This document shows, in pieces, positions 10,405 through 43,398 of a DNA stretch of 64,000 bases. The position numbers were made by a program, and so were the translations under genes. The notes below the pieces were generated by a model. That model did not search any database and was not told where the DNA came from. It was given only the letters and a program-made list of their open reading frames with translations. The stretch is from Bifidobacterium sp. GTDB lineage: Bacteria; Actinomycetota; Actinomycetes; Actinomycetales; Bifidobacteriaceae. The stretch's first letter is position 1; every line of letters begins with the position of its first letter. The stretch lies in assembly GCA_024104275.1 (NCBI GenBank), contig JAGGHK010000001.1, forward strand, positions 744,001-808,000, read 5' to 3'.

Positions 10405-10535
10405 AACTGTCGCTTTTTACTTGCTTGCTCGACCCAACTAAGTAAAAAGCAACAAATAGAGACGCTAAATGTGTCTTTTTACTTAGCCGCCCTTAGCAAG
10501 CAAGTAAAAAGCGACAATTAGCCAGCAAGCCACGC
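10405..10535. repeat. Two-unit 62-bp tandem hairpin array
   Basis: Unit 1 starts at 10412 and unit 2 at 10474. Each has a left arm ctttttactt and a right arm aagtaaaaagc at the same offsets (positions 2-11 and 29-39 of the unit), giving two hairpins of 39 bp with 17-base loops. Crosswise, 10405-10429 and 10495-10519 are also inverted repeats (24 of 25 bases), so one long nested cruciform is an alternative fold. It sits between the typA terminator and the membrane-protein gene, in the promoter region of the pheA operon. Confidence 0.85.
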
Positions 10536-10563
10536 ACCGATCGGCCGTAGTCGGGAAACGTCA

Positions 10564-10610
10564 CAACGAAAATGCGCACCCACCATCCGCTTCGGATGAC
10601 GGGTGCGCAT
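10564..10610 (-). terminator. typA terminator
   Basis: Minus strand: arms ATGCGCACCC (10610-10601) and GGGTGCGCAT (10581-10572) with a small inner hairpin, followed by TTTTCGTTG. It lies 49 bases after the typA stop. Confidence 0.85.
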
Positions 10611-10658
10611 ATAGGCAACGATAGGTTGCGATGAGACTGAAGTCTGCTCAGCCCTTAT

Positions 10659-12587
10659 TTACTTCGCCTTTGCGGAGTTCTGGCGACGCTGGCGGGCGTG
10701 CCACTTGTACCATTCGTCGCGGTCGAGGATGACCTTGCGCACGCGGATGGCCTCGGGGGTGACCTCGACGCACTCGTCCTCGTTGGCGAAATCGAGCGAC
10801 TCTTCGAGGCTCATCTTGATGGGCGGGGTGAGCGTTTCGAGCACGTCAGCGGTGGAGGAACGCATGTTGGTCATGTGCTTGGCCAACGTGACGTTGACGT
10901 CGAGCTCGTCGGGCTTGTTGTTGATACCGACGACCTGGCCCTCGTAGACGTTGGACTGCGGCTCAATGAAGAAGTTGCCGCGGGCCTGCAGGCGCTGCAT
11001 GGCGTATGGGGTGGCGACGCCGGCGCGGTCAGAAATCATCGAACCGTTCTGACGGGTGGTGATCTCACCGGCCCATGGGGCATATCCGGCCGAGATGGAG
11101 CTGGAAATACCGGTGCCGCGGGTGGCGGTCAACAGGGCGGTGCGGAAGCCGATCAGGCCACGGGAAGGAACTGTGAACTGCAGGCGGACCCAGCCGGAAC
11201 CGTGGTTGGACATGGAGTCCATACGGCCCTTGCGGTCGGCCATCAGCTGTGTGACGGCGCCCATGTATTCCTCGGGCACGTCGATGGTGTCGTTCTCCAT
11301 AGGCTCGTTGAGCTTGCCGTCGATGGTCTTGGTGACCACCTGCGGGCGGCCGACGGTCAGTTCGTAGCCTTCGCGACGCATCTGCTCGGCCAGAATCGCG
11401 AGCGCGAGTTCGCCACGGCCCTGGACTTCCCATGCGTCGGGTCGGTCGGTCGGCAGCACCTTGATGGAGACGTTGCCGATGAGCTCGCGGTCGAGGCGAT
11501 CCTTGATCATGCGTGCGGTAAGCTTGTGGTCCTTGCCTTCGCGGCCGGCCAGAGGGGAATCGTTGACGCCGAAGGTCATGGAGATCGCCGGGTCGTCGAC
11601 GTGAATCAGCGGCAACGGTTTCGGGTCATCGGGGTCGACGATGGTTTCGCCGATCATGATGTCATTGACACCTGCGACGGCGACGATATCACCGGGGCCG
11701 GCCTCGTCGACCGGGGTGCGGTCGAGGCCCTGCGTGCGCAGGATCTCGGTGAGCTTGAAGTTTTCGAGCGAGCCGTCGACTCGGGAAAGGCCATACTGCT
11801 TGCCTTTCTTGAGCGTGCCGTTGTAGATGCGGACCAGGCCCAAGCGGCCGAGGTAATCGGAGGCGTCGATGTTGGTGACGTGGGCCTGCAGCGGCGCGCC
11901 TTCGGTATATTCCGGTGCGGGAATATTGGAGATGATGGTGTCGAAGAGCGGTTCGAGGTCCTTGTTGTCGGGCAGGCCGCCGTCCTTGGGCTGATTGCGC
12001 GAGGCGTAGCCAGCCTTGGCTGCGCAATAGATGACCGGAAGGTCGAGCAGGGAGTCGAGGTCGAGGTCGACGCCTTCCTCGCTGACGTCCTGCGCCAGGC
12101 CAAGCAGCAGATCGGTGGTCTCGCTGACGACTTCCGAAATTCGCGCGTCGGGACGGTCGACCTTGTTGATGCACAAGATCACCGGCAGCTTGGCCTCGAG
12201 CGCCTTGCGCAGCACGAAACGGGTCTGCGGCAGCGGGCCTTCGGAAGCGTCGACCAAGAGCACCACGCCGTCGACCATGGAGATGCCGCGTTCCACCTCG
12301 CCGCCGAAATCGGCGTGGCCGGGGGTATCGATGACGTTGATGGTGATGCCTTGGGGCTCGCCGTATTTGGCAGCCAGAGGGCCGGTGTATTGCACTGCGG
12401 TGTTCTTGGCGAGGATGGTGATGCCCTTCTCACGCTCAAGATCGTTGGAATCCATCACGCGGTCCGGCACTTCCTCACGCTCGTTGAACACATGCGACTG
12501 CTGAAGCATCGCGTTGACCAGCGTCGTCTTGCCGTGATCGACGTGAGCCACGATCGCCACATTTCGAATATCACCACGTACCGCCAT
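10659..12587 (-). CDS. typA: Ribosome-associated GTPase TypA/BipA
   Basis: Translational GTPase that binds the 70S ribosome and helps large-subunit assembly and stress adaptation. 642 residues. G1 [10 protein letters not shown] near 14-23, G3 [16 protein letters not shown]4 NKVD, then EF-G-like domains II, III and V and the BipA-specific C-terminal domain ([18 protein letters not shown]). ATG at 12587 with AGGAGAGG upstream. Transcribed alone, or by read-through from the Nudix-like gene 158 bases upstream, and followed by a clear terminator. Confidence 0.97.
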
Positions 12588-12745
12588 AAAAGCCTCTCCT
12601 AATTACCTTTTCTTGAGTGCTTATCAGATAGAACTACTCTAACCTTCTACTTACACACAAACCTTCACAATAGTATCCACGTATCCCGACACGGGTACGC
12701 TATTTGCAAAGCGTTGGAAAGCCGGATTTCTGCGGCCAACGAAGA

Positions 12746-13564
12746 TCACTCCGTGGTCAACGCAGAAAGCACATCGTCGCCGGCCCCGGAGCCGTTGAAC
12801 TCCGTGCCGGTAGATTCCGATTTGGGGTTGAGCTGCGTGTCCCAGGACTTCCATACCTCATTGCCAACGGCCACAACCCCGGGTACATAACGATAGACGG
12901 CTGCCGGTCTATGCCGGCCTTCCGCCAATTTATCCCCGGTATCTTCAAGCTGCCCGGAAGCCAGCATCTTGCGGCGGAAATTGCCCAGGTCAAAGCTGCG
13001 TCCGGCAATGGCCTCATAGACATCATGCAGCCGGCGGAGCGTGAAACGCGGTCCGACCAGCTTCGAAGCCACATCGGGATACGACATCTTCGAGCGCAGC
13101 CGATCCAAAGCGTATTTGATGATTTGCGCGTGATCAAAAGCGAGAGGCGGCAACGCGGATTCTGCGAACCACTGCACATTGTCTCCGTCTCGCAGCTCGT
13201 CGACCTGTGCGCTGCCAATCAACGCCCAGTAGACGATGGAGACCATGGGCAGGGCGGAACCGGAGCGGTGCGGATCGCCGAAGGTATAGAGCTGCTCCAA
13301 ATATTTGGGACGCAGGTTCGTGGTCGATTCCAGCGCGACATAGGCGGACCATTCCAGCGACCGCCCGGCGAGCAGATCGCCTCCGGGAAGGGCCCACATC
13401 CCCTTGAACGGCTCACGGACACGCCTCACCAGCGGTATCCACAACTCGTCTCGTTGGGCTTTTTGGTCATGTTCAGCGCATGAATGGGCGAGTGCGAAAA
13501 TGATAACGGAAACTCCGACCTCAGGCGGGCCGGCCTTGCGTTCCGTCACATTTCCTTGCCACAT
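12746..13564 (-). CDS. Nudix-fold transcriptional regulator, NrtR-like, with degenerate Nudix box
   Basis: 272 residues. Residues 15-150 look like a Nudix fold (VSVIIFALAHS at the first strand, then GMWALPGGDLLAGRSLEWSA). About residues 150-220 (FDHAQIIKYALDRLRSK, RFTLRRLHDVYEAIAGRSFD, NFRRKML) match the winged-helix domain of NrtR-type regulators. The catalytic REXXEEXGX segment of a true Nudix box is absent: after GGD one reads AYVALESTTNLRP. So I infer a ligand-sensing DNA-binding protein rather than a hydrolase, possibly for NAD metabolism as for NrtR; no NAD gene lies in this window. ATG at 13564 with AAGGAG upstream. It follows scpB on the same strand. Confidence 0.7.
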   Translation of the reverse strand: MWQGNVTERKAGPPEVGVSVIIFALAHSCAEHDQKAQRDELWIPLVRRVREPFKGMWALPGGDLLAGRSLEWSAYVALESTTNLRPKYLEQLYTFGDPHRSGSALPMVSIVYWALIGSAQVDELRDGDNVQWFAESALPPLAFDHAQIIKYALDRLRSKMSYPDVASKLVGPRFTLRRLHDVYEAIAGRSFDLGNFRRKMLASGQLEDTGDKLAEGRHRPAAVYRYVPGVVAVGNEVWKSWDTQLNPKSESTGTEFNGSGAGDDVLSALTTE

Positions 13565-13670
13565 GCTGCCGCGCTCCTTCGTTATCTTCCAAACTTGTTA
13601 CCCACAGCAAGACTACCAAGTCAAGATTACCGAGTGCGGCATATCGCCGTGCCACCAAGCACCATATTTT

Positions 13671-14501
13671 CTAAGCAACTGCGGGCAGGTCGGTCTCCGC
13701 ATTCTCGGCCTGATTGACCACATCGCTGGCTGCCGGCATGAAGGGAGCCAGCTCCGGGAGCTGGTCGAGGGATTCGAGACCCATTTTCTCCAGAAACAGC
13801 CCGGTGGTGACCAGAAACGCCGCGCGGGAATCGGAATCGGCGCCTTCCTCACGGATAAGGCCGCGCACGCTCAAGGCACGAACCACACCGTCGGAATTGA
13901 CGCCACGGATGGCAGCAATTTGAGCGCGGGTAACCGGCTGCTTGTAGGCGACGATGGCCAAGGCCTCAAGCGCCGCCTGCGAAAGCCGGGCCATCTGCCC
14001 GTCGGTGACGAAAGCCGAAACGACCGGCTCGAACACGGCCCGATTGCCATATTGCCAACCACGGGCGGTATGCCGCAACTCGAAACCCCGGGGGGCGAGA
14101 TTGTGAGCTTCATCGCCATCGTATTCGCGCTGCATCGATTCAAGCGCTGAAGTGACTTCGCCTTCGTCGAGCGCCAGCACGCGGGCCATGTCAGCGGCCT
14201 GCTGCGGTTGGTCGGCCACCATCAAAATCGCTTCAAGGCAGGATTCGAGCCCGCCTGGAAAATCCTCAACGCTAAAGTCCACATATTCAGGGCGCGTAGG
14301 AGCCGCATCCGGGCCTTCCCCGCGAGCAGGTTGCTCTTCACTGTCCTTGTTATCGGTTTCGCTGGAGGCTTCATCGAACGAAGCATCATCGATTTCAGAT
14401 ACTTTTATTTCGCTCATATCAACCTCAGCACCGTTGGGGCCGCGCACGTCCCCACTCGTCGACTCCACGCCGTTTTCGGCCATATCATTGGTCTCGCTCA
14501 T
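13671..14501 (-). CDS. scpB: Segregation and condensation protein B
   Basis: Kleisin-associated subunit of the SMC-ScpAB condensin that compacts and segregates the chromosome. 276 residues. The first 85 residues are an acidic Ser/Glu-rich extension, then the tandem winged-helix core: LESCLEAILMVADQPQQAADMAR, LSQAALEALAIVAYKQPVTRAQI (each typical of ScpB) and LIREEG. The ATG at 14501 overlaps the scpA stop by 4 bases, indicating coupled translation. The smc gene is in this window at 39033-42977. Confidence 0.94.
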   Translation of the reverse strand: MSETNDMAENGVESTSGDVRGPNGAEVDMSEIKVSEIDDASFDEASSETDNKDSEEQPARGEGPDAAPTRPEYVDFSVEDFPGGLESCLEAILMVADQPQQAADMARVLALDEGEVTSALESMQREYDGDEAHNLAPRGFELRHTARGWQYGNRAVFEPVVSAFVTDGQMARLSQAALEALAIVAYKQPVTRAQIAAIRGVNSDGVVRALSVRGLIREEGADSDSRAAFLVTTGLFLEKMGLESLDQLPELAPFMPAASDVVNQAENAETDLPAVA

Positions 14502-15391
14502 GCGAAATCACCCTCATTCACTTCAACGGCGCTGTCCCCATCATCGGCACCTGGTACCCATCGTAGATGCAAATCCTCAAAGGGACCGGCCTGTTTATAT
14601 TGCAGCACACCCTGTTTGAAGAAGAGGAGAATGGACAAGAACCTCGCCACGACCACCAACGTGCTTTTGGCGTCGGCGGTGAGTTCGGCAAAGGTCATCG
14701 ATCCGCCTTCCTCCAGGCCACGCAACCGGTTGCGCACAATCTGCGACTGCTGCTTCAGATCGACCTGCGCGACATGCAACTGGTCGAGCCGTACCTCGTC
14801 CGCCGGAGCGTTCAGGAACACGTCGACGGCGATTTTCGCCAAGTCCTCGGGACCCAGTGTCCATGCCAGTTCCGGCAACATCGCCGCGATGGCTGGATCG
14901 CTGAAGGCAGGGTGCGGAAAACGTCCGGAGTTGGCGGCGAACAGTTCACGGAAATCATTCGCCGCGCTTTTGAATGCCCGGTACTGCACAAGTCTGGCGA
15001 AAAGCAGATCACGTTCACGCAGGGCCTCCATGCTCTGCTCGTCACGTTCGCCATTCTCATCACTGGGCAGGATCGCGGCGCTTTTGGCCTCCACCAAGAC
15101 GGAAGCGACATCGAGAAACGCACTGACCTGCTCCATGTCGCGGGCCATGTTCAGACCACGCACGTATTCGATGAATTCCTCAGTGATGGCCGAAAGCGAG
15201 ACTTCCGTGAGTTCGAGCTTGCGGTTGGCGATCATCGTCAGCAAAGCGTCGAACGGGCCTGAATAAACGGAAAGATTGACCGAAAAGCCTTTATTACTGG
15301 CCTTTTGCAGGCCTTCGGCATCGCCATCACTTGCCGGAGCCGACGTCAAAGCCGTGTCATCAACGGGAGCGTTCAGCTCGTCTTCGCTCAT
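14498..15391 (-). CDS. scpA: Segregation and condensation protein A (kleisin)
   Basis: Bridges the SMC dimer with ScpB in the condensin complex. 297 residues. The kleisin N-terminal helices follow FSVNLSVYSGPFDALLTMI (near 35-55), with ISAITEEFIEYVRGLN-like helix next, DVASVLVEAKSAAILP in the middle and the C-terminal winged helix toward residue 260 (VVVARFLSILLFFKQGVLQ). The ATG at 15391 has GTGAGGTGTC directly upstream. It lies 73 bases after parA-like. Confidence 0.94.
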   Translation of the reverse strand: MSEDELNAPVDDTALTSAPASDGDAEGLQKASNKGFSVNLSVYSGPFDALLTMIANRKLELTEVSLSAITEEFIEYVRGLNMARDMEQVSAFLDVASVLVEAKSAAILPSDENGERDEQSMEALRERDLLFARLVQYRAFKSAANDFRELFAANSGRFPHPAFSDPAIAAMLPELAWTLGPEDLAKIAVDVFLNAPADEVRLDQLHVAQVDLKQQSQIVRNRLRGLEEGGSMTFAELTADAKSTLVVVARFLSILLFFKQGVLQYKQAGPFEDLHLRWVPGADDGDSAVEVNEGDFA

Positions 15392-15464
15392 GACACCTCA
15401 CTTACGTGATACATTCGATAGCGCGGCAGACCATCTGCATCGCACGATACCAAGAAAAAATCCC

Positions 15465-16601
15465 TCAATCCACGATGCCACGAGCGATGAGCTCGCGCGC
15501 GGTCTCGCGGTATTCCTTGGCCGTCTTGTGGTTGGGCGCGTAAATCGTGATCGGTGCGGCGGCGACGTTCGAATCGGGCAGCTTGATGGAACGGGAAATC
15601 ACGGAATGGAAGACCCTGTCCTGGAAAGCCTCGTAGATGCGCTGCAGCACTTCCTCGCAGTGCAGGGTCGCGGTGTACATCGTCACCAGAACGCCGTAGA
15701 CCTCGAGCTGCGGGTTGATGCGCGAGCGCACCTTCTCGATGGACTGCATCAACAACGCCACGCCGCGCAAGGCGAAGAATTCGGCAGCCACGGGAATGAT
15801 CACGCCGTCGGCGGCGGCCAGCGCATTGACGGTCAGAAGCCCCAGCGAGGGCTGGCAATCGATGATAATGACATCGTATTCGTCGCGCACGCCTTCAAGC
15901 ACGCTGGCAAGAATGCGCTCACGACCCACTTCGGTGACGAGCTGCACCTCCGCGGCGGAAAGGTCGATATTGGCCGGAATGATGTCAAGGTTCTCGAAAT
16001 CGGTGTGCTGCACCACGTCGTGGACGTCAAGCGAGGAGTCGAACAACGCGTTGTAAATGGTGGCATCCACGGTGTTCGCGTTGATGCCCAAGCCGACACT
16101 GGCGGCACCCTGCGGATCGAAGTCGACGATGAGCACGCGTCGGCCATACTGGCTCAGCGCCCCGCCGATGTTGATGGAACTGGTGGTCTTGCCGACACCG
16201 CCCTTCTGGTTGCACATCGCGATGATACGCGCCGGACCGTGGTGGTCAAGCGGTTTCGGCGCAGGAAACGTCTCATATTTTCGTCCAAGAAGATCGGTAG
16301 GCATGTCTTTCATGCTATCAACAGGCCTGTTCACGGCCTGTACAAAGGATTTTGAACCGCCTGAATGTTTCTTTTGAGCCTCATCGGAAACCGGCGGCAC
16401 ATGCACGGTACCCGGCAACGGCAGCTTGCCTTGCGTCACGCGTTTCGGCTGCTCCTCGCCGAGCCACCTCGCCGCGCTGAATCCGCCGTCGCGGTATTGG
16501 CTTTTGGACTTTTGCGTGGTCTCGTGGCCTTCGTTTTTGGCCCCGTTTTTGTTCATACCTTTATTACTGGCCCCGCGAGACTTTGCGTTTTTCCTTGCCA
16601 T
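15465..16601 (-). CDS. ParA/Soj-family chromosome partitioning ATPase
   Basis: 378 residues. A basic, Lys/Ser-rich N-terminal region of about 110 residues precedes the ATPase core, with the deviant Walker A KGGVGKTT, then VLIVDFDPQGAASVGLG and DVIIIDCQPSLGLLTVNAL. Such proteins bind DNA non-specifically as ATP dimers and act with a ParB-type partner; here no parB is adjacent. The gene sits upstream of scpAB, a common actinobacterial arrangement distinct from the parAB locus near oriC. The start is the ATG at 16601 (GGGAGAA upstream) rather than 16619. Confidence 0.9.
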   Translation of the reverse strand: MARKNAKSRGASNKGMNKNGAKNEGHETTQKSKSQYRDGGFSAARWLGEEQPKRVTQGKLPLPGTVHVPPVSDEAQKKHSGGSKSFVQAVNRPVDSMKDMPTDLLGRKYETFPAPKPLDHHGPARIIAMCNQKGGVGKTTSSINIGGALSQYGRRVLIVDFDPQGAASVGLGINANTVDATIYNALFDSSLDVHDVVQHTDFENLDIIPANIDLSAAEVQLVTEVGRERILASVLEGVRDEYDVIIIDCQPSLGLLTVNALAAADGVIIPVAAEFFALRGVALLMQSIEKVRSRINPQLEVYGVLVTMYTATLHCEEVLQRIYEAFQDRVFHSVISRSIKLPDSNVAAAPITIYAPNHKTAKEYRETARELIARGIVD

Positions 16602-16678
16602 CGAATTCTCCCGCCTCATCGCCTACACAATACCGACAATCATCCTAATACGTTCGTGAGTCAAACATTGGGCAACCG

Positions 16679-17686
16679 TCACCGCGCCCGGGGGTGAGCC
16701 GTGAGGTAGGTCTCGATAAGGGTTTCGGGACTGACGTGAGTGTAGATCTGCGTAGTGGTCACGGAGGCGTGACCCAACAACTCCTGTACGGTACGCACGT
16801 CGGCACCGCCTTGGATCAGATGGGTGGCGAAGGAATGACGGAGCGTGTGCGGGTGAAGCGGTTTGTCGATATGCGCGCGTTCCCCTGCCGTCTTGACGAC
16901 CTCCCAGACGGACTGTCGCGAGATGCGCCGCCCGCGTTTGTTCAGAAATATCGCGCGACGTTCCTTGCCGCCTTTGGCTTTGCCCTCGAGCTGCGGCCGT
17001 CCCAGCGAAACGTAACGTTGCAAAGCCTTGATCGCATACTCCCCCAGTGGCACCAGCCGCTGCTTCGAGCCTTTGCCGGTAAGCACCACCACCCGCTCGT
17101 CGGTATCGACATCGTTGAGATCGGCACCGACGGCCTCGGAAACGCGGCAGCCGGTGGCATACATGAACTCGAGCAACGCCTTGTCGCGCAACACTACCGG
17201 GTCGTCGCTGCCGCCCATCGAAGCGGCGTCAAGCAGGCGCGTCACCTCGTCAATGCTCAGCACGTCCGGCAAGTGACCGTTGGCTTTCGGCGCTTTGACC
17301 CGCGCGGAAACGTCATCGGCCACCACGCCCTGCGTCAATGCGAACTTGTGGAACTCGTGGACGCTGGCGAGCCGGCGGGCCTTGCTGCGCCCGCTTTCCC
17401 CTGCCTCGTCGAGCGCGGCGACATACGCCTCGACGTCATGGCTGGTGACACTCGCCAAATCCTTGAGGCCTTGCGCATCGAGCCAACCAAGATACTTGCG
17501 GATATCAGCCGCGTACGCCTTCACCGTGGATTTCACCAGGCCGCGCTCCACGTCGATATGCGCGAGGAACTGGTCCAGCAGCGCATCCCAGTCAACGTTC
17601 GTGCCGTTCGCAGCAGACTTCGTTTCCGCTTCCACACTCGCAGAAGCGCCGGATTGCACGCTCGACGTCACTTCCGATCCGTTCAT
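16679..17686 (-). CDS. xerD: Tyrosine recombinase XerD
   Basis: 335 residues. An N-terminal extension of about 25 residues, then the SAM-like domain (LLDQFLAHIDVERGLVKST) and the catalytic domain with the Arg of ATGCRVSEAVG, HPHTLRHSFATHLIQ, LLGHASVTTTQIYTHV and its Tyr. Together with the XerC-like protein at 6047-7066 it should resolve chromosome dimers at dif. ATG at 17686 with ATGGAGTC upstream. First gene of a likely xerD-parA-scpA-scpB transcript. Confidence 0.92.
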   Translation of the reverse strand: MNGSEVTSSVQSGASASVEAETKSAANGTNVDWDALLDQFLAHIDVERGLVKSTVKAYAADIRKYLGWLDAQGLKDLASVTSHDVEAYVAALDEAGESGRSKARRLASVHEFHKFALTQGVVADDVSARVKAPKANGHLPDVLSIDEVTRLLDAASMGGSDDPVVLRDKALLEFMYATGCRVSEAVGADLNDVDTDERVVVLTGKGSKQRLVPLGEYAIKALQRYVSLGRPQLEGKAKGGKERRAIFLNKRGRRISRQSVWEVVKTAGERAHIDKPLHPHTLRHSFATHLIQGGADVRTVQELLGHASVTTTQIYTHVSPETLIETYLTAHPRAR

Positions 17687-17814
17687 GACTCCATTTTCAC
17701 TTTATTAGGCGACTTTTAAACTTCAGGAATACGCGAAAACCACAATAGCCAAACGTAATACACAATTGCATTTTCCATCGTCAGCTCAATTTTATAATGC
17801 ACATTTACGAACAC

Positions 17815-17899: not shown

Positions 17900-19803
17900 T
17901 CAGCCTTCCTGATTCAGGGACTTCTCACTGCGACGGGTGTAGACGAAGATTGCACCCGCTACACCGAGCAGCGCCACCACAGCCAGTCCGACCACGATGG
18001 CACCCGCGCCGCCGGTCATCGGCAGCTGAGCGAACGAGTTGACCTCCTGCACCACAATCAGATGGGTGTCCTCATCGGCCGTATACCACTCAGCGGACTG
18101 AACCAAATTCCATAGATCAGCCGAGTTGGAGTACTTCGGCGCTGTAAGGCTGTTTGTACCACTGACGTTGATCGTCACAGTGAACGTCGAGGCGAACGGC
18201 TGACCATAGCCGGTAGACACCGTTATCTCCTTGACCGTGTAGGTATTCGAGCCCAAACCATCGACCTTGATCTGGCCTGTGGTAAGTTCCGCCAAGACCA
18301 CCGGTAGCCGAAGTCAGAGTATCCACGACATCATTAACACCAACGGTATTGCCAGCGATGCCGACTTTCTTATAGCTGCCGTCAGCCAACTTCTTGAACA
18401 GCATCGGATCGCCGAAAACGGGATCAAGTATCTGGAACGTCGCGCCAGAGAGCTTGGTGGTCGAATCGATCTTGGCCTGGACCTCCATCTGGAAGTGATA
18501 GAAGTGCAGCGCGACAGGATCGCCGGGGTTGGTGTCGGTGATGGTGGTGACCGTGCCGTCGGTGTTGGTATCGTCACCATTATCAGCGGCCGGCGGATTG
18601 CCGGTATCGTTCGAATACGAAAGCTTGAAACCGTTGATCATATCGGCACTCGTGGTGGCGGTGTCATTGACCTTCATCTTGTATTCGACACGGATGAGCT
18701 TGCCATAATACTGGTGACCGATAGCTACGATACCCGGGGAAAGGTTGAAGGCCACTTGTCCGCCATCTCCCGGAGTCACGGTGACTGCGTAATCGGTGCC
18801 AACCGCACCGACCGCTCCCTCTGTCAGAGTCTTCAATGCCGAGGCATCAGGAGCATATTCGCTGTTGGCTATTCTGATCGATACCGAACCCGGCACATAG
18901 GTCAGGCCGGAATGCGGCAGATCGGTAAGCTTGTAGGTGTAATGGCTGAAACCGGTGGTCAGCGGCACACTGCCGATAAGCTGATAGGTCAGTTCGTCGC
19001 CGATGGAGGCGGAACCATAATTCGGAGCGACAAGCTTCTTCTTGATGGTCGGCACATTGTTCTTGACCGTCACAGTACCGAGCGTCATCGCGGTATCATC
19101 CTTGAATTTGCTATAGGTCTGTGGCGCGGTGGACATCAACACCGTACCTGCGAGGATAGGTATGGAAGCCGGAGCGTTTGTTCCCGCAACCGCCGTAGTG
19201 CTACCCGCTCCCGTGGTGTCGACGACCAGATAGAGACCGATAGGCAAACCGGTGAGCGTGACCGACGTTGCGCTCGAACCGGCTGTGACCGCGTAGCCCG
19301 AACTGGCGATATCGGCTTTGATGTCTGTACGCGCGGCCAGTACGGTGACGAAATCACGCAGTTTGCCTTGCCAGCCTCCACCCGAGGCATTCGAGGTGAC
19401 ATCCGTGGAGCTTCCAGCCGATGACGGGAAGCCAAGCCATTGGGAGGCAACCTTGGCCATCACGTTGTTTTTCGTCCGCTGAAGGGATCGCGGTGCCATT
19501 GGCAGCCAGATATGCAGCGATCATGGACGTCTTATAACCGCTCGGCGTCGTGACGGACACGAACTTCAAATCGGCACCGTCAGCCTGGGCATCCGAATAC
19601 GTGGCCACTTTGATGGCCTTGAAGGTATGGTTGCCCAGCGACGCGCTTGTGCCGGTAATCACAAGCGACGCTGTGGCGGCAGTATCAACATCGACATGGG
19701 TATCAGCCATCGCCGAACCCGATGGAATCAGCGCGACCGCAAGCATGGCGGCTGCGGCGACCGCGGCACCGACGCCGCGTTTCAATCCTTTTGTCACATT
19801 CAT
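17900..19803 (-). pseudogene. Backbone (major) pilin, LPMTG-anchored, interrupted by two frameshifts
   Basis: Reads as a sortase-polymerised pilus shaft subunit of about 633 residues if two single-base insertions are ignored. Signal peptide: MNVTKGLKRGVGAAVAAAAM and onward to SAMADT. A pilin-like motif, VTVKNNVPTIKKKL, supplies the lysine region; an E-box-like YTVKEITVSTGYG precedes the anchor. The C-terminus has LPMTG, a membrane helix and a basic tail (YTRRSEKS). Frameshift 1 is near 19470: five A where four would join SADE to NNVMAK. Frameshift 2 is near 18290: one T too many joins LTSATGG to LAELTTGQ out of frame. ATG at 19803 with AAAGGAAC upstream. As written the product stops shortly after frameshift 1. 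Decay, sequencing error or variation cannot be separated here. Confidence 0.8.
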
Positions 19804-26929: not shown

Positions 26930-27082
26930 GGCTCACATTTTTTCGAGGGTCTTAAAAAATGTGAGCCCGAAACGAACATTGCTCACGGCATAATATCATA
27001 ATTCCAACGTTTTCGGGCCATTGAAAAAATGGTAAATGTTCATTTGACTCGCATTTTTTGAAAGGTCCGAAAAATGTGAGCC
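26930..27082. repeat. Two related AT-rich hairpins with GC clamps
   Basis: Hairpin 1 (26930-26967) is a perfect 14-bp stem beginning GGCTCACATTTTTT. Hairpin 2 (27046-27082) repeats it with substitutions (CTCGCATTTTTT ... AAAAATGTGAG). Between them CCCGAAACG (26966-26974) and CGTTTTCGGG (27008-27017) are inverted relative to each other. It fills the divergent gap between the VOC gene and the thiamine pyrophosphokinase gene, and hairpin 2 ends 23 bases before the latter's start. Confidence 0.75.
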
Positions 27083-30403: not shown

Positions 30404-30470
30404 AGACTGCTCATTGATTCCAGATATTCAAAACGGATCTTCGCAATCCGCAATCTTCAAAAATCGTCTT

Positions 30471-30676
30471 CTTGGCGCGCCAAGAAGGCCGTTTTATCCA
30501 GAATTACGTTTCAATCTTCATATTTCGGGGTACTTGGCACACCAAGAAGCCACTCTTATCCAGAATTGTGGGTGATTCTTCTTATTTTGGCCCTCTTGGC
30601 GCGCAGAGAGGTCAATATCTGCAACTTTGAAGCCCCAAAGTTAACATTTTGGGCTTCTTGGCGCGCCAAGAGGTTT
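30471..30676. repeat. 62-bp tandem repeat array with CTTGGCGCGCCAAG palindromes
   Basis: Units begin at exactly 30471, 30533, 30595 and 30657 (period 62). Each opens with CTTGGC and a palindrome: perfect in units 1 and 4, degenerate in units 2 and 3. In unit 1 it extends to the 20-bp CTTCTTGGCGCGCCAAGAAG. TTATCCAGAATT is shared by units 1 and 2 at the same offset. The tail of an earlier unit (CAATCTTCA near 30450) suggests a fourth period upstream. It fills most of the 404-base gap between ybaK and the aldose epimerase gene; the rest of that gap shows only AT-rich promoter-like sequence. Confidence 0.9.
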
Positions 30677-30807
30677 AAAAACGGCACAAATATGGGTCAA
30701 TGATATGAATGATATATTCCCGTCGAATCTGTAGCGTCACGGAATCAGACTGAGCATCATATTAGAATAGTGAACGATAACAATAACGTTTCTCAATAGG
30801 AGTTGAT

Positions 30808-32252: not shown

Positions 32253-32400
32253 TGATACCGCTCAGCAATCGTTTTTCGGCATTGCTGACTTTTCATGCCG
32301 AAAAACGGTCATAAGCCTTTAGATGAACGGTCTTCTGCATAGCGCACCTTCTCATGCCGAAAACCGGTCACTGCCGGTTTCTAAATGAACGGTTTTCTGC
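32253..32400. repeat. Degenerate hairpin array, period about 59-62 bp
   Basis: CATGCCGAAAA recurs at 32294 and 32353 (59 bp) and ATGAACGGT at 32323 and 32385 (62 bp); each pair forms an imperfect hairpin (12-13 of 16 bases). A small hairpin CAGCAAT/ATTGCTG precedes them. It lies in the 377-base convergent gap between bL37 and the anti-sigma gene. Confidence 0.65.
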
Positions 32401-32537
32401 AGCTTGATCCGCTTGTGCGGAAAATAGATTGCAAAATAAGATATTCCAGATCATAACTTCCATCAGCACTGACAAATACCAACGAAAAAGCCATTGTATT
32501 CAAAACGTGGCTAAACGTATAACAGTGCTCCAGACCA

Positions 32538-36485: not shown

Positions 36486-36539
36486 CACCGAGCAGATGCA
36501 TCCACCATTCCCGAAATTTTCAGAGGTAAGCTAAGAACC

Positions 36540-37784
36540 ATGAAGCAATTCCAACCGGTACTTTTGGGCAGCGATATCAACGCATATGGTATGGCCCGCG
36601 CCTTTAACGAGGCGTACGGCATCGTTTCGACGGCCTTCGCGCACTTCCAGCTTGCGCCCACCAGGTTCAGCAAGATTGTCGACGTCCATATCGTCGACGG
36701 ATTCGGCGAGGCCGAGACGTTCCGCAAGACGCTCATCGACTATGCCAAAACATTCAAATCCAGCCATCCCGACACCACGCTGCTGCTCATCCCCTGCGGT
36801 GACCTGTATGCGAACCTCTTGAGCCACAGCAGCGCGGACTTGGCGCCTTATTTCGTTTTCAATACCCTTGACCCGGCGCTCAACAAGCAGCTAAGCTACA
36901 AGAACACGTTCTACGAAACCTGCGAACGCTACGGGCTGCCTTACCCCAAGACCAAGGTCATGACCAAGGAAAGCGTGGCGCGAGGCGAATACAAAAACCT
37001 GCCATTCAACTTCCCCGTCGCCATGAAACCCGCCGATTCCGCGGCATGGCTCGACATCGACTTCCCGGGACGCAAGAAGGCGTTCGTCATCGAGACGCCG
37101 GAGGAGCTGGACAAGCTCATCAACCTCGCCTACGGTGCCGGCTATCACGCCGAGATGATCCTGCAGGACTTCATTCCCGGCGACGACTCGCATATGCGCG
37201 TGCTCAACGCCTACGTCGACCGCCACCACCGTGTGCGCATGATGTTCCTCGGCCACCCGCTGCTCGAAGACCCCACCCCCGAGGCCGTGGGCAACTACGC
37301 GGCCATCATCCCCGATTACAACGAGGAAATATGTTTGAAAATCAAAGCGTTCCTCGAGGACATCGGCTATGAGGGCGTCGCCAATTTCGATATGAAATAC
37401 GACGACCGAGACCATACCTACAAGCTTTTCGAGATCAACCTGCGACAAGGACGTTCCAGCTATTTCGTGACGCTGAACGGCTACAACCTAGCCCGTTACT
37501 TTGTCGAGGATCTAGTGGAGGACGCTGACTTCGACGGCAACACCGTCATCGGCCGCGGCAACAAGCTTTGGATGGAGATTCCGCGTTCGATTTTCCGCGA
37601 TTACGTGGTCGACGGCGAGGACAAGCAACGCGGCATGAAAATGATCGCCGATAGCGACTGGGGCACGACGCTGGAATATCGCAAGGACATGAACCCGATG
37701 CGCTGGCTGTTGATCCGGCACGCGTTCTCGATCTATAAAAAGCGCTATGCGGAGTATTTCAAGCAGAAAGCGGACCTCAAGTGA
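36540..37784 (+). CDS. ATP-grasp carboxylate-amine ligase, D-aspartate ligase-like
   Basis: 414 residues. An N-terminal Rossmann-like part (VLLGSDINAYGMARAFNEAYG), then the ATP-grasp core: NFPVAMKPADSAAW with the nucleotide-binding Lys, MILQDFIPGDDSHMRVLNAYVD, and LFEINLRQGRSSYFV with metal-binding Glu and Asn. The overall layout is that of the Enterococcus D-Asp ligase Asl, which attaches D-aspartate to the side-chain amine of the peptide's Lys. murE precedes it and a racemase overlaps its end, so I infer cross-bridge formation. Glu or Asn as substrate is not excluded. ATG at 36540, with GAGGTAAGCTAAGAACC upstream. Confidence 0.85.
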   Translation: MKQFQPVLLGSDINAYGMARAFNEAYGIVSTAFAHFQLAPTRFSKIVDVHIVDGFGEAETFRKTLIDYAKTFKSSHPDTTLLLIPCGDLYANLLSHSSADLAPYFVFNTLDPALNKQLSYKNTFYETCERYGLPYPKTKVMTKESVARGEYKNLPFNFPVAMKPADSAAWLDIDFPGRKKAFVIETPEELDKLINLAYGAGYHAEMILQDFIPGDDSHMRVLNAYVDRHHRVRMMFLGHPLLEDPTPEAVGNYAAIIPDYNEEICLKIKAFLEDIGYEGVANFDMKYDDRDHTYKLFEINLRQGRSSYFVTLNGYNLARYFVEDLVEDADFDGNTVIGRGNKLWMEIPRSIFRDYVVDGEDKQRGMKMIADSDWGTTLEYRKDMNPMRWLLIRHAFSIYKKRYAEYFKQKADLK

Positions 37785-38512
37785 AACGACCGTTTTTCGC
37801 CGTTATCGGCGGTATGGGAACGTTGGCGACCGAATCGTATATCCGGCTCATCGACAAGATGAGCGACGCCACCACCGACCAGGACTTCCTCGACTACGTG
37901 GTGTTCAACGACGCTTCCGTGCCCGACCGGACGGCGTTCATGTTGGGTGACAGCGCTGACGACCCGTTCCCCGTCATCGCCGATGACATCGTCAAGGCCA
38001 CGGCCATCGGCGCCAGCTTCATTACAATTCCCTGCAACACGGCCCATTTCATGCTGCCACGTTTCCAGGAACTCACCGACGTACCGATCTTGAATATGCT
38101 GACCGGTGCCGTGGAACGTATGAAGGCGACCCTGCCCGTCTCGACGCACCCGCGCGTGGGCTTCATGGGCACCGAAGGCTCCCGTCATTCCGGGCTCTAC
38201 CAACGCGAGATCGAAGCCGCCGGCTATACGTTCATCGAGCCCGATGACAAGTTGCAGAAGCGCATCGATTCGCTGATCTACGACGACGTGAAAAGCGGTG
38301 GGCCGCTGAGCCTCGACCGCTATCGCACCGTCATCGACACGTTCCTCGACAAGTCCGATTCCGCAAAATACCGTTGCGATATCGTGGTTCTAGGCTGCAC
38401 CGAACTTTCGGTTCTGAACGAGGCCTTCCCGCTCCCCGACCTGCCCATCATCGACGCCCAAACCATCCTAGCCGAGGATACCGTGGCTCGTGCGAAGGAA
38501 CTGAGAAAGTAA
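37781..38512 (+). CDS. Aspartate/glutamate-type racemase
   Basis: 243 residues of the Asp/Glu/hydantoin racemase fold. The two catalytic Cys are in TIPCNTAHF (near 86) and VLGCTELSVL (near 207), and the N-terminus FFAVIGGMGTLAT is typical of aspartate racemase. It would supply D-aspartate to the ligase upstream. The ATG at 37781 overlaps the ligase stop by 4 bases, so coupling is likely. Confidence 0.9.
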   Translation: MKRPFFAVIGGMGTLATESYIRLIDKMSDATTDQDFLDYVVFNDASVPDRTAFMLGDSADDPFPVIADDIVKATAIGASFITIPCNTAHFMLPRFQELTDVPILNMLTGAVERMKATLPVSTHPRVGFMGTEGSRHSGLYQREIEAAGYTFIEPDDKLQKRIDSLIYDDVKSGGPLSLDRYRTVIDTFLDKSDSAKYRCDIVVLGCTELSVLNEAFPLPDLPIIDAQTILAEDTVARAKELRK

Positions 38513-38523
38513 TCCGAATAGGA

Positions 38524-38553
38524 GTCTGGCTCCGATTAAAACCGAAGCCAGAC
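38524..38553. terminator. Hairpin between racemase and small membrane protein genes
   Basis: Arms GTCTGGCT/AGCCAGAC with a 14-base interior (GATTAAAAC). It lies between convergent stops (38512 and 38565) and may serve both; no strong T run, so termination is likely but not certain. Confidence 0.55.
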
Positions 38554-38564
38554 CGAAGCAACGA

Positions 38565-38729
38565 CTACCTCTGGCTATTACGCCAATCAGTTATTACCGT
38601 ATATACAATCAACATCACTAGAATGATATCGGCAACAACACTGTCCGCTTTGGCTATTAAGGCAGTGCTGAACACTATCAAAGCTTGCGAAATAATCGGC
38701 TCGTTGAACTTCTTTCTCCTATCGGACAT
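38565..38729 (-). CDS. Small membrane protein of unknown function
   Basis: 54 residues starting MSDRRKKFNEPI. Two hydrophobic stretches, ISQALIVFSTALIA and VVADIILVMLIVYTVI, with basic N-terminus and WRNSQR end, so two membrane helices with both ends inside are predicted. Start by GGAAGGAATTCC directly before ATG at 38729, a near-ideal site. No family recognised. It follows smc on the same strand after about 300 bases. Confidence 0.55.
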   Translation of the reverse strand: MSDRRKKFNEPIISQALIVFSTALIAKADSVVADIILVMLIVYTVITDWRNSQR

Positions 38730-39032
38730 GGAATTCCTTCCATTAGGCCACGCCACACAAGCGTGGCGATGTTACGCAAACCAAAAAGTTCACGCAATCG
38801 CCTGACTCGTGCTACCAAATCAGACGACGTAATTCATCTTACCGTTCAGGAAGAATATCTTGATGTCTGTGGTACACTGACATTATCAATTGTGGCAGTG
38901 CTATCCGTTTGGAATGAAAGTCCGGCAATAACACTTTTATCAGACGGTGTCTCAATTGAAGGACATGGAATATTTCCATGCTTTTGGCTCGGTACATGAC
39001 GAATGCTACCGGGCCAAAATCATATTCTCGTG
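38730..39032. other. Gap without recognised gene
   Basis: AT-richer than its neighbours. It holds short palindromes (CATGGAATATTTCCATG near 38964, GCCACGCTTGTGTGGC type near 38750) and a possible -10 TGATAATG on the minus strand for the small gene. No coding sequence with a ribosome-binding site was seen. Confidence 0.5.
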
Positions 39033-42000
39033 TTATTCGTGCTCGAGCTTCTGGCTCACGACTGCGGTGACGCCGTCGGAGCGCATCGTGACGCCGTAGA
39101 GGGCGTCGGCGATGGCCATCGTGCGCTGCTGGTGGGTGATGATGATGAGCTGGGCGTGCTGGCGCAGGTCGTTGAACGCGTTGATCAGGCGGGTCAGATT
39201 GATGTCGTCAAGCGCGGCCTCGACCTCGTCCATCACGTAGAACGGGCTGGGGCGCGCGGTGAAGATGGCGAAGAGCAGGGCCAGAGCTGTGAGTGAGCGT
39301 TCGCCACCGGAGAGCAGGCTCAGCTGCTTGACGCGTTTGCCTGCAGGGCTCGCTTCGACGATGACGCCCGTGGTGAGCAAATCGTCGGGATTCTCCAGAC
39401 GCAGACGACCCTTGCCACCCGGGAAGAGCGTTGCGAAGACCTTTTCAAAGGCGGCTGCCGTGTCATCGAAGGCGTTCTTGAACACCTCGATCATCGTGTG
39501 GTCCAGGTCCTTGATGAGTTTCAGCAGGTCATCTCGGCTCTTGGCGACGTCGTTGCGCTGGTCGTTCAGGTATTGGTTGCGGGTTTCGAGTGCGTCGAAC
39601 TCCTCGGCCGCCAACGGGTTGATCTTGCCCAGCGCCTTCAGGTCACGCTCGGCCTTGTGCAAGCGCTTCTCCTGCTCAGCACGCACGTACGGCACCATCT
39701 GGTAATGCTCGGCGTTGATGGGCACATCTCGGTCCGATCCGTACTGATCATTGGCATCTGCTGCATCTTCGTCTGAATCGTGCTGGGCATCGACTCCAGA
39801 TTCATCTTCGCCTAAACGATAACGGCGATCAGACTTCGTTGCGTCTTCGTCTGAGATGTTAAGACTATTGGACTCAGACGTGGTCACCGCATTGTCATCT
39901 TGAGCGTCCTCGTTATCGACCTCACCACGTGCAATCGTTGCGGTTCCGGATTTCTGAACGACGGGATCCGCGGGTAGTGCGGCGGCATCAGAACGATTGC
40001 CAAGTGTATTACTTTTATTGTTGCCTGCAATAGAACCATCCGTGTCGCCACTATTTTCAAGCGGAATCGGATGACCTTCGTCGTCAAGTACCGGAACCAG
40101 CTTATCGGGGCCGTATTCGTCAACCAACGCCTCAAGGCCCATGCCCAGCGTGTCCGAGACCTTCTGCTCGATCTGGCCGTATTGCGCGGCCAGACGCTCG
40201 CGGTTGACGTCCAGCTCGTGCTCACGTTGCTGCAAAGCGGCAACTTTCGGCTCGGCTTCGTCACGTTGCGCGCGCAGCTGTTTCAGCTCGGCATCATGAC
40301 TTGAAGCCGCCTTGGAAAGTTCATCTCGCTTGGCGACCACGGTCTTGAGCTCGGCGGAGACCAACGCGGCCATACCACGTGCATCCGCGGCGATTTGCCG
40401 GTCATGGGCCTGCTGATGTTCACGCTTCTCATTGAGCGCCTTCATCTTCGCGCGCCTTGCCACGGCTTCGGTCGCCTGATCGTGCAACAACCCAGCCTGG
40501 CGTACGAGCGAATCGGCCTTGCGATTGGCGTCGTTCCAAACGATCTTCGCCGAGACCTCCTGCTCCCGCGCCTTGTCAAGTGCAGTCTCGAGTTCGTGGA
40601 CGCGCTTGTCCAAGTCGTCAAAGTCTTCATTGTCGGTGTCGGAATGTTCCGCGGTTTCCAGCGCCTGGCTCAAGTCCTCAAGCTTGAGCTGATGCGTCTG
40701 CCGGTCATCATCGGTCTGCTTGATTTTCTCGTCGAGACCGTTCAATTGTCGAGTCAGCTGTTTGACCCGTTCCTCGACATTCTTGAGATTCTTGCGTGCT
40801 TGATCGGCCTTAACCTTCGCTTGAATGCGTCGTTGCGATTGCCTGTCGACCTCAAGACGTGCCTTGTCACGCGTTTCCGTTGCAGCCTCGATTTTCGGCT
40901 TAATCGTCGCCGTTTCGTCTTCGAGTTTCTTGGCTTCCGCCGTCGCCTTGTCACGCCGGGCAGCCAGCGACAAATCACTCTGCGAGCGCGAGGAACCGCC
41001 GATGGCACCCACAGCGTTGACCACTTCGCCTGATTTGGTGACAGCTTGGTTGAACCGCTTGCCCTCCACAGCTTCCAGCGCGGTATCCATATCTGGCACG
41101 GCGGCGACGTCATCCAACAAAAGCCGAACTGCACGAACAACACTGGCAGCAAAATCGGCATCTTTGGCGGAATCATTGACACTTACCAACATCGAGGCAC
41201 AACGCACAGGGTACTGGCTTTGGTCGCCTTTCCCACCGGTTGTTTCGGTTTCGGCATTCTCGCCAGCCCCACTGTCAAGCGGATGCAATACAACCGCCTG
41301 CCCGAGCTTGCCTTCGCTGGCACGCCGCAAGGCCTCTACCATATTGGATTTGCCAGGCACCACAATGGCACTGGCAAACTGGTCAAGCGCATGGGCGATG
41401 GCCTCTTCCCAACCGTCCTCGACGTGGATGAAATCGGCAAGCCTGCCCAGCGCAGCCACGGCGTCGTCCTGTTCAAGCTCGCCGGAAGCGTTACGGCTTT
41501 CCAGCGTCTCGTTCAGCGCATCGGCCTTCGCCTTGAGTGCCGTCACCTTGGCGGTCGTGGCCCGAAGCTGTTCTTGCAAAGCGTCAAGTTCTTCCTGACT
41601 CTGCTGCATCGCGGTTTTCGCCGTCTCAAGCTCGGCGGCACTATCCTCTTCGCCCGCATCTTGCGTTTCCGCTTCAAGAGTGTCGCGCTGTGCGGTGACA
41701 TCGTCACGCTGCTTGGCGATGGATTCGCGCTGCCCATTGAAATCCTTGGCACGGCTCTGCGCCAGTTCGATGGCGGATTCCTCACGGGTCTTGAGCTCGC
41801 GCAGATTGGCGACCTTCGAGGTGTGCTCCTGTGCGGCCTTGCGCAGTTCCGTCAAGGTCTGACGCGCCGCGGCGAGCTGCTTCTCATTGCCGGCGCGAGA
41901 TTCCGTCGCCTTGTCATACGCAATACGCATGTCGGAAACGGCCTTCTTCTGGGCTTCGGCCTGACCGTCCAATTCCTTGGCCCGAGACTCAAGAATGTCC

Positions 42001-42977
42001 GGGTCCTCGCCGAAGTTCGTAATCATCTGACCGGCAAGGGAACGCGCACGCTCGTCCGCCAACGAAGCCAGCGAACGGAACCGTTCCTCGATGCTCGAAA
42101 GCTCATGCCACGTCTCGTTGATTTTCTCCATGGCCGGACTGGATTCGGAACTCAGCGCCTCGACCTGTTCGATATGCACCTTGACTTTCGCCAACTCGCG
42201 TTGCGCGCCTTCCAGCTCCCGTCGCACATCACCCAAATCGTTGCGCAGCTTGGCGCTACTTTCCATGGATTTCTGGGCGTCCTCGGCGAAAATCCTCGAC
42301 TGGGCGTCACGCAAGGAAATCTGGATGCTCGCGGCCCGTCGCGAAATCTTGGCCTGACGTCCCAGCGGTCCCAGCTGCCGGCGAATCTCATGAAGCAGAT
42401 CGTCGGTGCGGGCGAGGTTCGCCTCGGTGTTCTTGAGCTTGCGTATCGCGCGTTCCTTACGCTTGCGGTGCTTCAAAATGCCCGCGGCCTCTTCGATGAA
42501 GGCGCGGTGGCCGGCGGGATCGGCCTTGAGGATCTCGTCAAGCCTGCCCTGACCGACGATGACGTGCATCTGCTGACCCAGGCCGGTGTCGCTCAACAGC
42601 TCCTGAATATCGAGCAGACGGCAGGGCGAGCCGTTGATGGCATATTCGGAGCCGCCATTGCGGTAGATGGTACGGCTGATGGTGACTTCGGTGTAGTCGA
42701 TGTCGAGCGTGCCGTCGGTGTTGTCGATCGTCAGGCTGACTTGCGCACGTCCCAGCGGCGGACGCGAGGAAGTGCCGGCGAAAATCACGTCCTCCATCGA
42801 GGTGCCGCGTAGGTTCTTGGCGCCCTGCTCCCCCATCACCCACGTCAGTGCGTCGACGATGTTGGATTTGCCGCTCCCGTTCGGGCCCACCACGGCCGTG
42901 ATACCCGGTTCAAAGCGCAAAGTGGTAGCGGAAGCAAAGGATTTGAATCCCTTGAGCGTCAGTTCCTTGAGATACAT
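39033..42977 (-). CDS. smc: Chromosome segregation ATPase SMC
   Basis: Condensin motor working with ScpA and ScpB. 1314 residues. Walker A GPNGSGKSN (near 32), coiled-coil arms, hinge around 500-650, returning coil, then the C-terminal signature LSLLSGGERSLTALALL and Walker B YVMDEVEAALDD. Between VPVLDDEGHPIPLE and VPYVRAEQEKRLHKAER there is an acidic, Ser/Asn/Asp-rich insertion of about 130 residues, making it longer than the usual 1180-1200. ATG at 42977. It is transcribed after folC across the hairpin-filled gap. Confidence 0.96.
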   Translation of the reverse strand: MYLKELTLKGFKSFASATTLRFEPGITAVVGPNGSGKSNIVDALTWVMGEQGAKNLRGTSMEDVIFAGTSSRPPLGRAQVSLTIDNTDGTLDIDYTEVTISRTIYRNGGSEYAINGSPCRLLDIQELLSDTGLGQQMHVIVGQGRLDEILKADPAGHRAFIEEAAGILKHRKRKERAIRKLKNTEANLARTDDLLHEIRRQLGPLGRQAKISRRAASIQISLRDAQSRIFAEDAQKSMESSAKLRNDLGDVRRELEGAQRELAKVKVHIEQVEALSSESSPAMEKINETWHELSSIEERFRSLASLADERARSLAGQMITNFGEDPDILESRAKELDGQAEAQKKAVSDMRIAYDKATESRAGNEKQLAAARQTLTELRKAAQEHTSKVANLRELKTREESAIELAQSRAKDFNGQRESIAKQRDDVTAQRDTLEAETQDAGEEDSAAELETAKTAMQQSQEELDALQEQLRATTAKVTALKAKADALNETLESRNASGELEQDDAVAALGRLADFIHVEDGWEEAIAHALDQFASAIVVPGKSNMVEALRRASEGKLGQAVVLHPLDSGAGENAETETTGGKGDQSQYPVRCASMLVSVNDSAKDADFAASVVRAVRLLLDDVAAVPDMDTALEAVEGKRFNQAVTKSGEVVNAVGAIGGSSRSQSDLSLAARRDKATAEAKKLEDETATIKPKIEAATETRDKARLEVDRQSQRRIQAKVKADQARKNLKNVEERVKQLTRQLNGLDEKIKQTDDDRQTHQLKLEDLSQALETAEHSDTDNEDFDDLDKRVHELETALDKAREQEVSAKIVWNDANRKADSLVRQAGLLHDQATEAVARRAKMKALNEKREHQQAHDRQIAADARGMAALVSAELKTVVAKRDELSKAASSHDAELKQLRAQRDEAEPKVAALQQREHELDVNRERLAAQYGQIEQKVSDTLGMGLEALVDEYGPDKLVPVLDDEGHPIPLENSGDTDGSIAGNNKSNTLGNRSDAAALPADPVVQKSGTATIARGEVDNEDAQDDNAVTTSESNSLNISDEDATKSDRRYRLGEDESGVDAQHDSDEDAADANDQYGSDRDVPINAEHYQMVPYVRAEQEKRLHKAERDLKALGKINPLAAEEFDALETRNQYLNDQRNDVAKSRDDLLKLIKDLDHTMIEVFKNAFDDTAAAFEKVFATLFPGGKGRLRLENPDDLLTTGVIVEASPAGKRVKQLSLLSGGERSLTALALLFAIFTARPSPFYVMDEVEAALDDINLTRLINAFNDLRQHAQLIIITHQQRTMAIADALYGVTMRSDGVTAVVSQKLEHE

Positions 42978-43086
42978 GGATTATTGGCTTCCTCTGCTCT
43001 TCCGCTTACCCTTGAGCACCCTTACGTAGCGCTTCGACTTTCTGTAGCTATCATACCGTCTAGGGCAACCCAACACCTCAGCTGTT

Positions 43087-43178
43087 AGTGCCACAAATCG
43101 GTCACTAGTGCCCCAAAACCGACATTTTTAACGGGAAAAATCAACGTCACGTGGCACTAGTGACCGATTTGTGGCACT
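43087..43178. repeat. Dispersed palindrome, copy 2 (perfect 26-bp arms)
   Basis: Arms 43087-43112 and 43153-43178 are exact inverted repeats with a 40-base loop, containing the self-complementary CACTAGTG. The element shares arms and loop with 31801-31888. It sits about 110 bases before the smc start on the minus strand. Confidence 0.88.
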
Positions 43179-43238
43179 AACCAGTCAAACGGCGGACTCC
43201 ACCAAATGTTTCATGCCGATTGATGCCACAACTGCAAC

Positions 43239-43398
43239 GAAAAGCACCAAAACCGGCCCTCAAAAGCGCTTTTCTCCTCAGTAAGATTGCGAATCAGTGA
43301 AAAAAGCACCAAATCAGGCCCAAAATAGTGCTTTTGCCACTGATTGAGGATTTCACAGAGGCGAAAAGCACCATTTTCGGTTTAAAATGGTGCTTTTC
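43239..43398. repeat. Three-unit 62-bp tandem hairpin array
   Basis: 36-bp hairpins at 43239-43274, 43301-43336 and 43363-43398, exact 62-bp period, 26-bp spacers. Arms read GAAAAGCACC ... GTGCTTTTC; unit 3 is a perfect 15-bp stem with a 6-base loop. The spacers flanking unit 2 add AATCAGTG/CACTGATT, lengthening its stem. Unit 3 lies 25 bases after the folC stop and could act as its terminator. With the palindrome at 43087-43178 this accounts for most of the 445-base folC-smc gap. Confidence 0.92.

Follow-up and report, generated by a model that had tools for sequence, protein, structure and literature searches.

Among described systems, those closest to the elements reported here are the repetitive extragenic palindromes and bacterial interspersed mosaic elements (REP/BIME) with their RAYT transposases; in Escherichia coli, IHF, gyrase and Pol I bind to them (PMC2817692). 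BIME-2 arrays are strong DNA-gyrase sites, and the E. coli gyrase motif spans 130 bp, with a 10.75-bp G/C period in two outer regions of ~46 bp and a distinct 36-bp centre; a comparison with nucleosomes has been drawn for it (PMC6379681). The arrays described here come from a window of 64,000 bp of a Bifidobacterium sp. genome (G000:C11:744001-808000; 2.16 Mb in 19 contigs, completeness 94.85%). Like REP/BIME they are short extragenic palindromes, present in many copies and in regularly spaced groups. They differ in that no Y1/RAYT gene accompanies them in the four genomes searched, in being built of ~54 + 8-bp modules with a 10.3-bp A/T phasing, and in that one geometry is common to families unrelated in sequence. 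No paper on such arrays was found among the open-licence PMC papers searched. By the identity of its aldose epimerase (92% to Bifidobacterium sp. ESL0784, 91% to ESL0682, then 80% to B. commune), the window has these two strains as its nearest named relatives; we call this the bee clade, such strains having been isolated from the bee gut.

Three loci of the window, A, B and D, carry repeats exactly 62 bp apart and a fourth, C, a degenerate set, as a preliminary description of this DNA had proposed and as direct reading with a recount bears out. Locus B has CTTGGC... at 30471, 30533, 30595 and 30657 (three spacings, each 62 bp), and locus D has AAAAGCACC at 43240, 43302 and 43364 (two spacings, each 62 bp). 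At locus A, CTTTTTACTT stands at 10413 and 10475, so that the spacing of 62 had been given correctly while the positions (10412 and 10474) were one too low; the two hairpins, the first of the form TGTCGCTTTTTACTT...AAGTAAAAAGCAACA, occupy 10408..10454 and, 62 bp beyond, 10470..10516. At locus C (32270..32401) the repeats have lags of 59 (at 32293) and 62 (at 32323). A count blind to family, of hairpin-linked exact direct repeats of at least 9 bp at lags of 30-150 bp, found 20 events in 564 kb of the same genome, window included, of which 7 lie at 61-62 bp, in six arrays (three of them in the window), and three further events at 122-124 bp span two steps of these arrays. Of one set of stretches taken from this genome, C13:150001-170000 was chosen for its family A match and C12:80001-100000 holds a D site already listed; the rest were chosen blind to arrays. 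Three relatives (G102, G054 and G100; 480 kb) gave 11 events with 4 at 61-62 bp, and named bee-clade loci (147 kb) gave 4 events, among them 61, 62 and 64 bp; other Bifidobacteriaceae (305 kb) gave 39 events, none at 58-62 bp and 5 at 63-64 bp. The 62-bp spacing is thus real and far above chance, and the predicted excess holds within the genome itself. It does not extend to the other Bifidobacterium stretches sampled, in which exact 62-bp spacing is rare and periods of 51-53, 60-65, 82 and other values occur.

Family B is defined by the core TTGGCGCGCCAA, a perfect 12-bp palindrome without a loop. With at most one mismatch, CTTGGCGCGCCAAG has 60 forward matches in the genome of the window, as against 1 for the reversed control. 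A search of 112 Bifidobacterium genomes for exact cores at spacings of 47-77 bp found pairs in four of them, and all 42 pairs are spaced 62 (37) or 63 bp (5); no B pair was found in the scanned collections of genome contigs and viral contigs, from which records close to the window's genome may be missing. At least 22 clusters lie in the genome of the window, and of those fetched 10 have two cores, 5 have three, 6 have four and one is a singleton (L024, excluded from the arrays); their spacings are 62 (33 times), 61 (twice), 60, 63, and one of 123 that spans a run of N between two visible cores (L011) and is not counted as a 62-bp unit. Across 41 arrays in the four genomes the spacings are 62 (70 times), 63 (six), 61 (four) and, once each, 60, 69 and 123. 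None of these 41 arrays overlaps a gene, as called by a simple codon-usage caller written for this analysis, and the orientation of the genes around those of the window's genome (15 codirectional, 3 divergent, 3 convergent) is similar to that around background intergenic gaps of at least 150 bp (131, 44 and 30). The array of the window itself (30451..30690, module edges projected) consists of four ~54-bp modules at a 62-bp pitch, with cores at 30472, 30534, 30596 and 30658. The first lies in the palindrome CTTCTTGGCGCGCCAAGAAG (30468..30487, direct reading); reading and recount give core 2 as TTGGCACACCAA (30534..30545), two bases away from the consensus, core 3 as TTGGCGCGCAGA (30596..30607), damaged in its right half, and core 4 as TTGGCGCGCCAA (30658..30669). 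The array is flanked by the genes of an aminoacyl-tRNA editing-domain protein and an aldose 1-epimerase.

Family D has the motif AAAAGCAC N18 GTGCTTTT. Its frame is 34 bp in most cases, with variants of 33, 35 and, once, 31 bp among the sites listed. Its approximate oriented consensus is CAGTGAG AAAAGCACC AAAA nnGGCCC AAAA TGGTGCTTTT CGCCTCAG, with the GC-rich part GCACC...GGTGC. Sites are present in all four genomes searched, and pairs (sought at spacings of 48-76 bp) in 10 of the 112 genomes. Among the 108 distinct pairs listed, which come from nine of the ten positive genomes (G102 in part, G034 left out), 103 are spaced 60-63 bp: 62 (76 pairs), 61 (21), 60 (3) and 63 (3), besides 51 (3), 72 (1) and 56 (1). 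That four of these five outliers are 51 or 72 bp is a weak hint of whole-turn steps within the family. Of 47 clusters, one lies in an open reading frame, and the 46 intergenic ones are 30 codirectional, 13 convergent and 3 divergent. In the window, module 1 (43230..43283, arms 43240-43273; extent projected from the family profile), module 2 (43292..43345, arms 43302-43335; reading and family profile) and module 3 (43354..43407, arms 43364-43397; reading and gene context) are separated by projected linkers of ~8 bp, weakly conserved across the family, at 43284..43291 and 43346..43353. The neighbours of the locus are an SMC gene and a Mur-ligase-like gene; module 3 lies directly downstream of the latter, a minus-strand gene ending at 43423, with a gap of 15 bp. 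Beside the array, at 43085-43180, lies an element of 96 bp whose inverted ends, 28 bp long, match perfectly (TTAGTGCCACAAATCGGTCACTAGTGCC); the orthologous gaps in G102 and G054 lack it, and in G100 it cannot be recognised. The arm sequences of B and D share no core, as had been said of the loci, but contrary to what had been implied they are not specific to their loci: both families, and weakly also A, are dispersed in this genome. Nor is the description 'not a mobile sequence family' supported, each being a dispersed, lineage-restricted family whose units are gained and lost between species.

What the two families have in common is a plan: a dyad-symmetric module of ~54 bp, a linker of ~8 bp, and A/T spots near +-5, +-15 and +-26 bp from the centre, so the proposal that a geometry recurs in palindromes unrelated in sequence is upheld. 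Where terminal units face outward (78 ends in B, 90 in D), information content drops close to background past ~+-27 bp, and the linkers inside the arrays show weak conservation (0.38 bits or less). In inner B units A/T is found in 97-100% at 4.5-5.5, 14.5-17.5 and 24.5-26.5 bp from the centre; in D the values are 93-100% at 4.5-7.5 bp, 100% at 13.5-16.5 bp and 76-87% at 25.5-26.5 bp. In 66 B units the A/T power reaches 89 at a period of 10.33 bp, compared with 20 at the next harmonic. When the period was fitted freely between 8.5 and 13 bp in arrays of three or more units, it came to 10.3 bp in both 28 B arrays (power 3.95) and 9 D arrays (4.02), in agreement with the suggestion that 62 bp corresponds to six helical turns. 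Each of the 28 B arrays with at least three cores surpasses in coherence even the most coherent of 154 background windows. Locus C, which had been grouped with the other three, cannot be placed in a family; its A/T peak is at 9.4 bp, with a power of just 0.67 at 10.3 bp.

The comparison of orthologous arrays bears on what is being preserved. Positions of A/T (W positions) were set on 18 units from 11 loci of the window's genome, which were kept out of the later test. In 13 orthologous B unit pairs, A/T stands on both sides in 203 of 208 W cells, compared with 134 of 442 other spacer cells; changes between A/T and G/C number 5 of 208 at W positions and 115 of 442 elsewhere (nominal Fisher p 5e-16), and swaps between A and T number 17 of 208 and 11 of 442 (p 0.0015), some of which may derive from unit exchange or spacer inversion rather than from point changes. 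Core identity in these pairs is 149 of 156. A/T content is thus kept without base identity, which fits a reading in terms of DNA shape, whereas RNA pairing or simple copying would not leave such a pattern. It is on this ground that, between the generating and the binding mechanism that had been offered for the spacing, binding is favoured; duplication alone explains little of it. Orthologous gaps also keep the unit length, as predicted: the D locus of the window, with three units, has four in G100 (spaced 62, 62, 62), three in G054 (62, 61) and two in G102 (61), and the gap of the B locus in ESL0784 holds two decayed B cores that are still 62 bp apart. Orthologous arrays differ by whole units.

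Taken together, sequence-specific cores, dyad modules, same-face spacing and conserved A/T content lead us to read the arrays as tandem sites at which a putative sequence-specific protein would bend or wrap the DNA; we give this reading an even chance. The unit would be a double-stranded DNA site in which a dyad module of ~54 bp (five turns) and a linker of ~8 bp would place neighbouring modules six turns, 62 bp, apart on one face of the helix. The protein would read the family-specific GC-rich part (TTGGCGCGCCAA in B, GCACC...GGTGC in D), and the flanks would be bent or wrapped with their A/T-rich minor grooves pressed inward near +-5, +-15 and +-26 bp. A run of two to four modules would then form a short wrapped or strongly curved intergenic patch, plausibly a chromosome-architecture or supercoil-anchoring element, and D arrays might double as transcription terminators. 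Protein binding, DNA wrapping, handedness and the architectural role are what we infer beyond the observed spacing, module size, A/T phase, A/T conservation and conservation at orthologous loci. Relaxed DNA has 10.5 bp per turn, and an A/T period below this value would suit left-handed wrapping. A bolder version, which we regard as tentative and on the doubtful side, is a nucleosome-like array in which related proteins of differing specificity would each wrap their own ~54-bp dyad module in a common 10.3-bp register, stacked at the 62-bp (six-turn) pitch and left-handed, given a period under 10.5 bp; the recognition sequence would evolve and swap between families around a constant particle geometry. 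Nucleosome-type A/T rotational signals offer a comparison: the A/T spots of the arrays here likewise recur at steps of ~10.3 bp and are out of phase with G/C. The arrays differ in being bacterial, in having a fixed sequence-specific core per family and in comprising two to four units.

Several observations weigh against a bending or wrapping protein as the reader of these arrays. The 10.3-bp fits use the arrays that define the families, with a contribution from the B core, and background intergenic DNA also peaks at 10.3 bp, weakly (0.38, 154 windows). The phases of B and D agree without a unique register: shifts of 0, +-10 and -31 bp all give profile correlations of 0.41-0.50, and masking both cores leaves 0.35. 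Of the rarer families taken up below, A (1.34 at 10.3 bp) and E (1.30 at 10.0 bp) fall under the background 95% level of 1.64, and a second A array peaks at 12.3 bp. The values for A and E and the lack of a unique B-D register slightly weaken the case for a bound protein. Some loci enter the 13 unit pairs repeatedly, for which reason the Fisher p is nominal. ESL0682 has no array in the gap of the B locus, and G102 and G054 have none in that of the A locus; one D pair, at 56 bp, is half a turn off. The arrays of the hold-out set (39 stretches, n=10: 51, 52, 53, 60, 60, 61, 67, 71, 90 and 96 bp) do not bear out whole helical turns as a rule. D is oriented and biased to 3' ends (13 convergent and 3 divergent of 46), which also suits terminators, and phased A/T alone could serve curvature without wrapping. 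As for the putative binder, HU, with one gene in each of the four genomes, is no more than a generic candidate. Lsr2 (PF11774) had no match in these four genomes, with a positive Corynebacterium glutamicum control.

The same observations can be set against other explanations. Selfish extragenic palindromes of the REP/BIME type, dispersed by a transposase and multiplied in tandem so that 62 bp would merely be the copied unit, would account for the dispersal and lineage restriction of the families (B pairs in 4 and D pairs in 10 of the 112 genomes), for unit numbers that vary between orthologous arrays, and for the gap of the A locus beside typA, where G100 (L227) carries another repeat, AAACGCAAC every 51 bp over three steps, so that one gap holds different families in the two genomes. 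Adjacent B units are, moreover, somewhat more alike than units from different arrays (0.567 vs 0.488; 14 pairs, 0 of 5000 permutations as high), so local duplication contributes. Copying leaves unexplained, however, why module size, linker and A/T phase are common to two unrelated families, and why A and T swap while G/C stays excluded. No Y1/RAYT transposase (PF01797) was found in the four B-bearing genomes, with a positive E. coli control, and no transposase, integrase or cas family was matched among the 30 genes scanned of the 40 that flank the B arrays of the window's genome. The REP terminal tags GTAG and CGTC (PMC3733652) are not evident in the base counts of B and D, on which no formal scan was run. 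We consider such an origin unlikely. Strong gyrase sites akin to E. coli BIME-2 are a quite improbable identity: the E. coli motif is likewise long, symmetric and G/C-phased with indirect readout, but it is degenerate and 130 bp long where B and D have conserved cores in modules of ~54 bp (PMC6379681 for the motif), and the arrays peak at 10.3 bp with low power at 10.9 bp (B 0.22, D 0.15), the comparison being with the motif of the E. coli enzyme.

Bidirectional intrinsic terminators or RNA hairpins would suit D, whose arms combine an A-tract, a GC stem and a T-tract, which prefers 3' ends and which in the window stands 15 bp from a gene end; we raised the standing of this explanation because the outer D arms pair slightly above expectation (ratios up to 1.26). 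Yet in 58 of 85 D sites (a set that includes a few chance singletons, one of them inside an open reading frame) the inner blocks read A..A or T..T, pairing in 1 and being mixed in 26, so the stem is not extended. Selection against pairing, entertained for this pattern, was dropped since an oriented repeat explains it. The B palindrome has no loop, no orientation bias and no excess pairing, its base pairing being about as expected from column composition (33 units); in family A the T-tracts come first; and the window has no Rfam match at gathering thresholds. Terminators or RNA hairpins are improbable in our estimation. Operators of a transcription factor, of LacI type or similar, are brought to mind by the perfect 12-bp palindrome of the B core, and bifidobacteria have many LacI regulators, but 3 of 21 B arrays in the window's genome lie between convergent genes and the flanking genes are of mixed housekeeping function, with one MarR regulator and one gene without a family match among those scanned. 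The published AraQ and MalR1 operators also differ in sequence (PMC6882875), and we regard operators as very improbable indeed. The pitch of type I-E arrays of clustered regularly interspaced short palindromic repeats (CRISPR) is numerically like 61-62 bp. Here, by contrast, the spacers share an A/T pattern and the units come in groups of two to four over at least 21 loci of one genome; this common pattern, together with the lack of a cas match in the 30 flanking genes scanned, speaks against a CRISPR array.

Beyond B and D, locus A represents a rarer third family, weakly dispersed, with a pitch of 62 bp and a second array at L014:3059 (lag 62). Arrays of other sequence at 61-62 bp were found at L071:7598 (family E), L099:2442 and L100:6717 (family F), L076:15546 and L034:8987 (family G), and L036:9190; with the period left free, F and G peak at 10.2-10.4 bp and rise above 1.64, the 95% level of the background. 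In other Bifidobacterium stretches, 33 exploratory arrays, partly homologous (L045/L046), have periods of 44, 46, 51 (five), 52, 61-65 (18), 82 (two), 84, 87, 99, 104 and 105 bp. These hinted at steps of ~10.35 bp throughout the genus, a rule that was abandoned when the hold-out set gave R 0.42 (p ~0.18 at 10.33 bp). Among the individual loci, L045:6394 (B. scaligerum) and L046:6458 (B. olomucense) each have two long-armed hairpins (CCTTTGTATGTTCGCG) spaced 64 bp, the A/T peak of L045 being at 10.7 bp. L048 (B. leontopitheci) has tandem hairpin arrays with periods of 51 and 63 bp within 21 kb (9386-9760, 17494-17560 and 18907-19250), and L186:10028-10300 has some with a period of 104-105 bp. 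In the genome of the window, L028 (G000:C11:650001-670000) shows exact repeats at lags of 71, 72 and 143 (11, 10 and 14 events), which indicate a further tandem array, perhaps of the CRISPR kind, and the window holds at 26930-27073 two large hairpins with AAAAATGTGAGCC common to both, at a lag of 115 bp.

That two sequence-unrelated families have one phased ~54 + 8-bp design suggests a single physical constraint acting on intergenic DNA. The modules can be ordered as short DNA and are directly testable. If a protein does wrap them, they would provide compact, genome-encoded sites for studying local chromatin in a bacterium that has one HU gene and no Lsr2 match.

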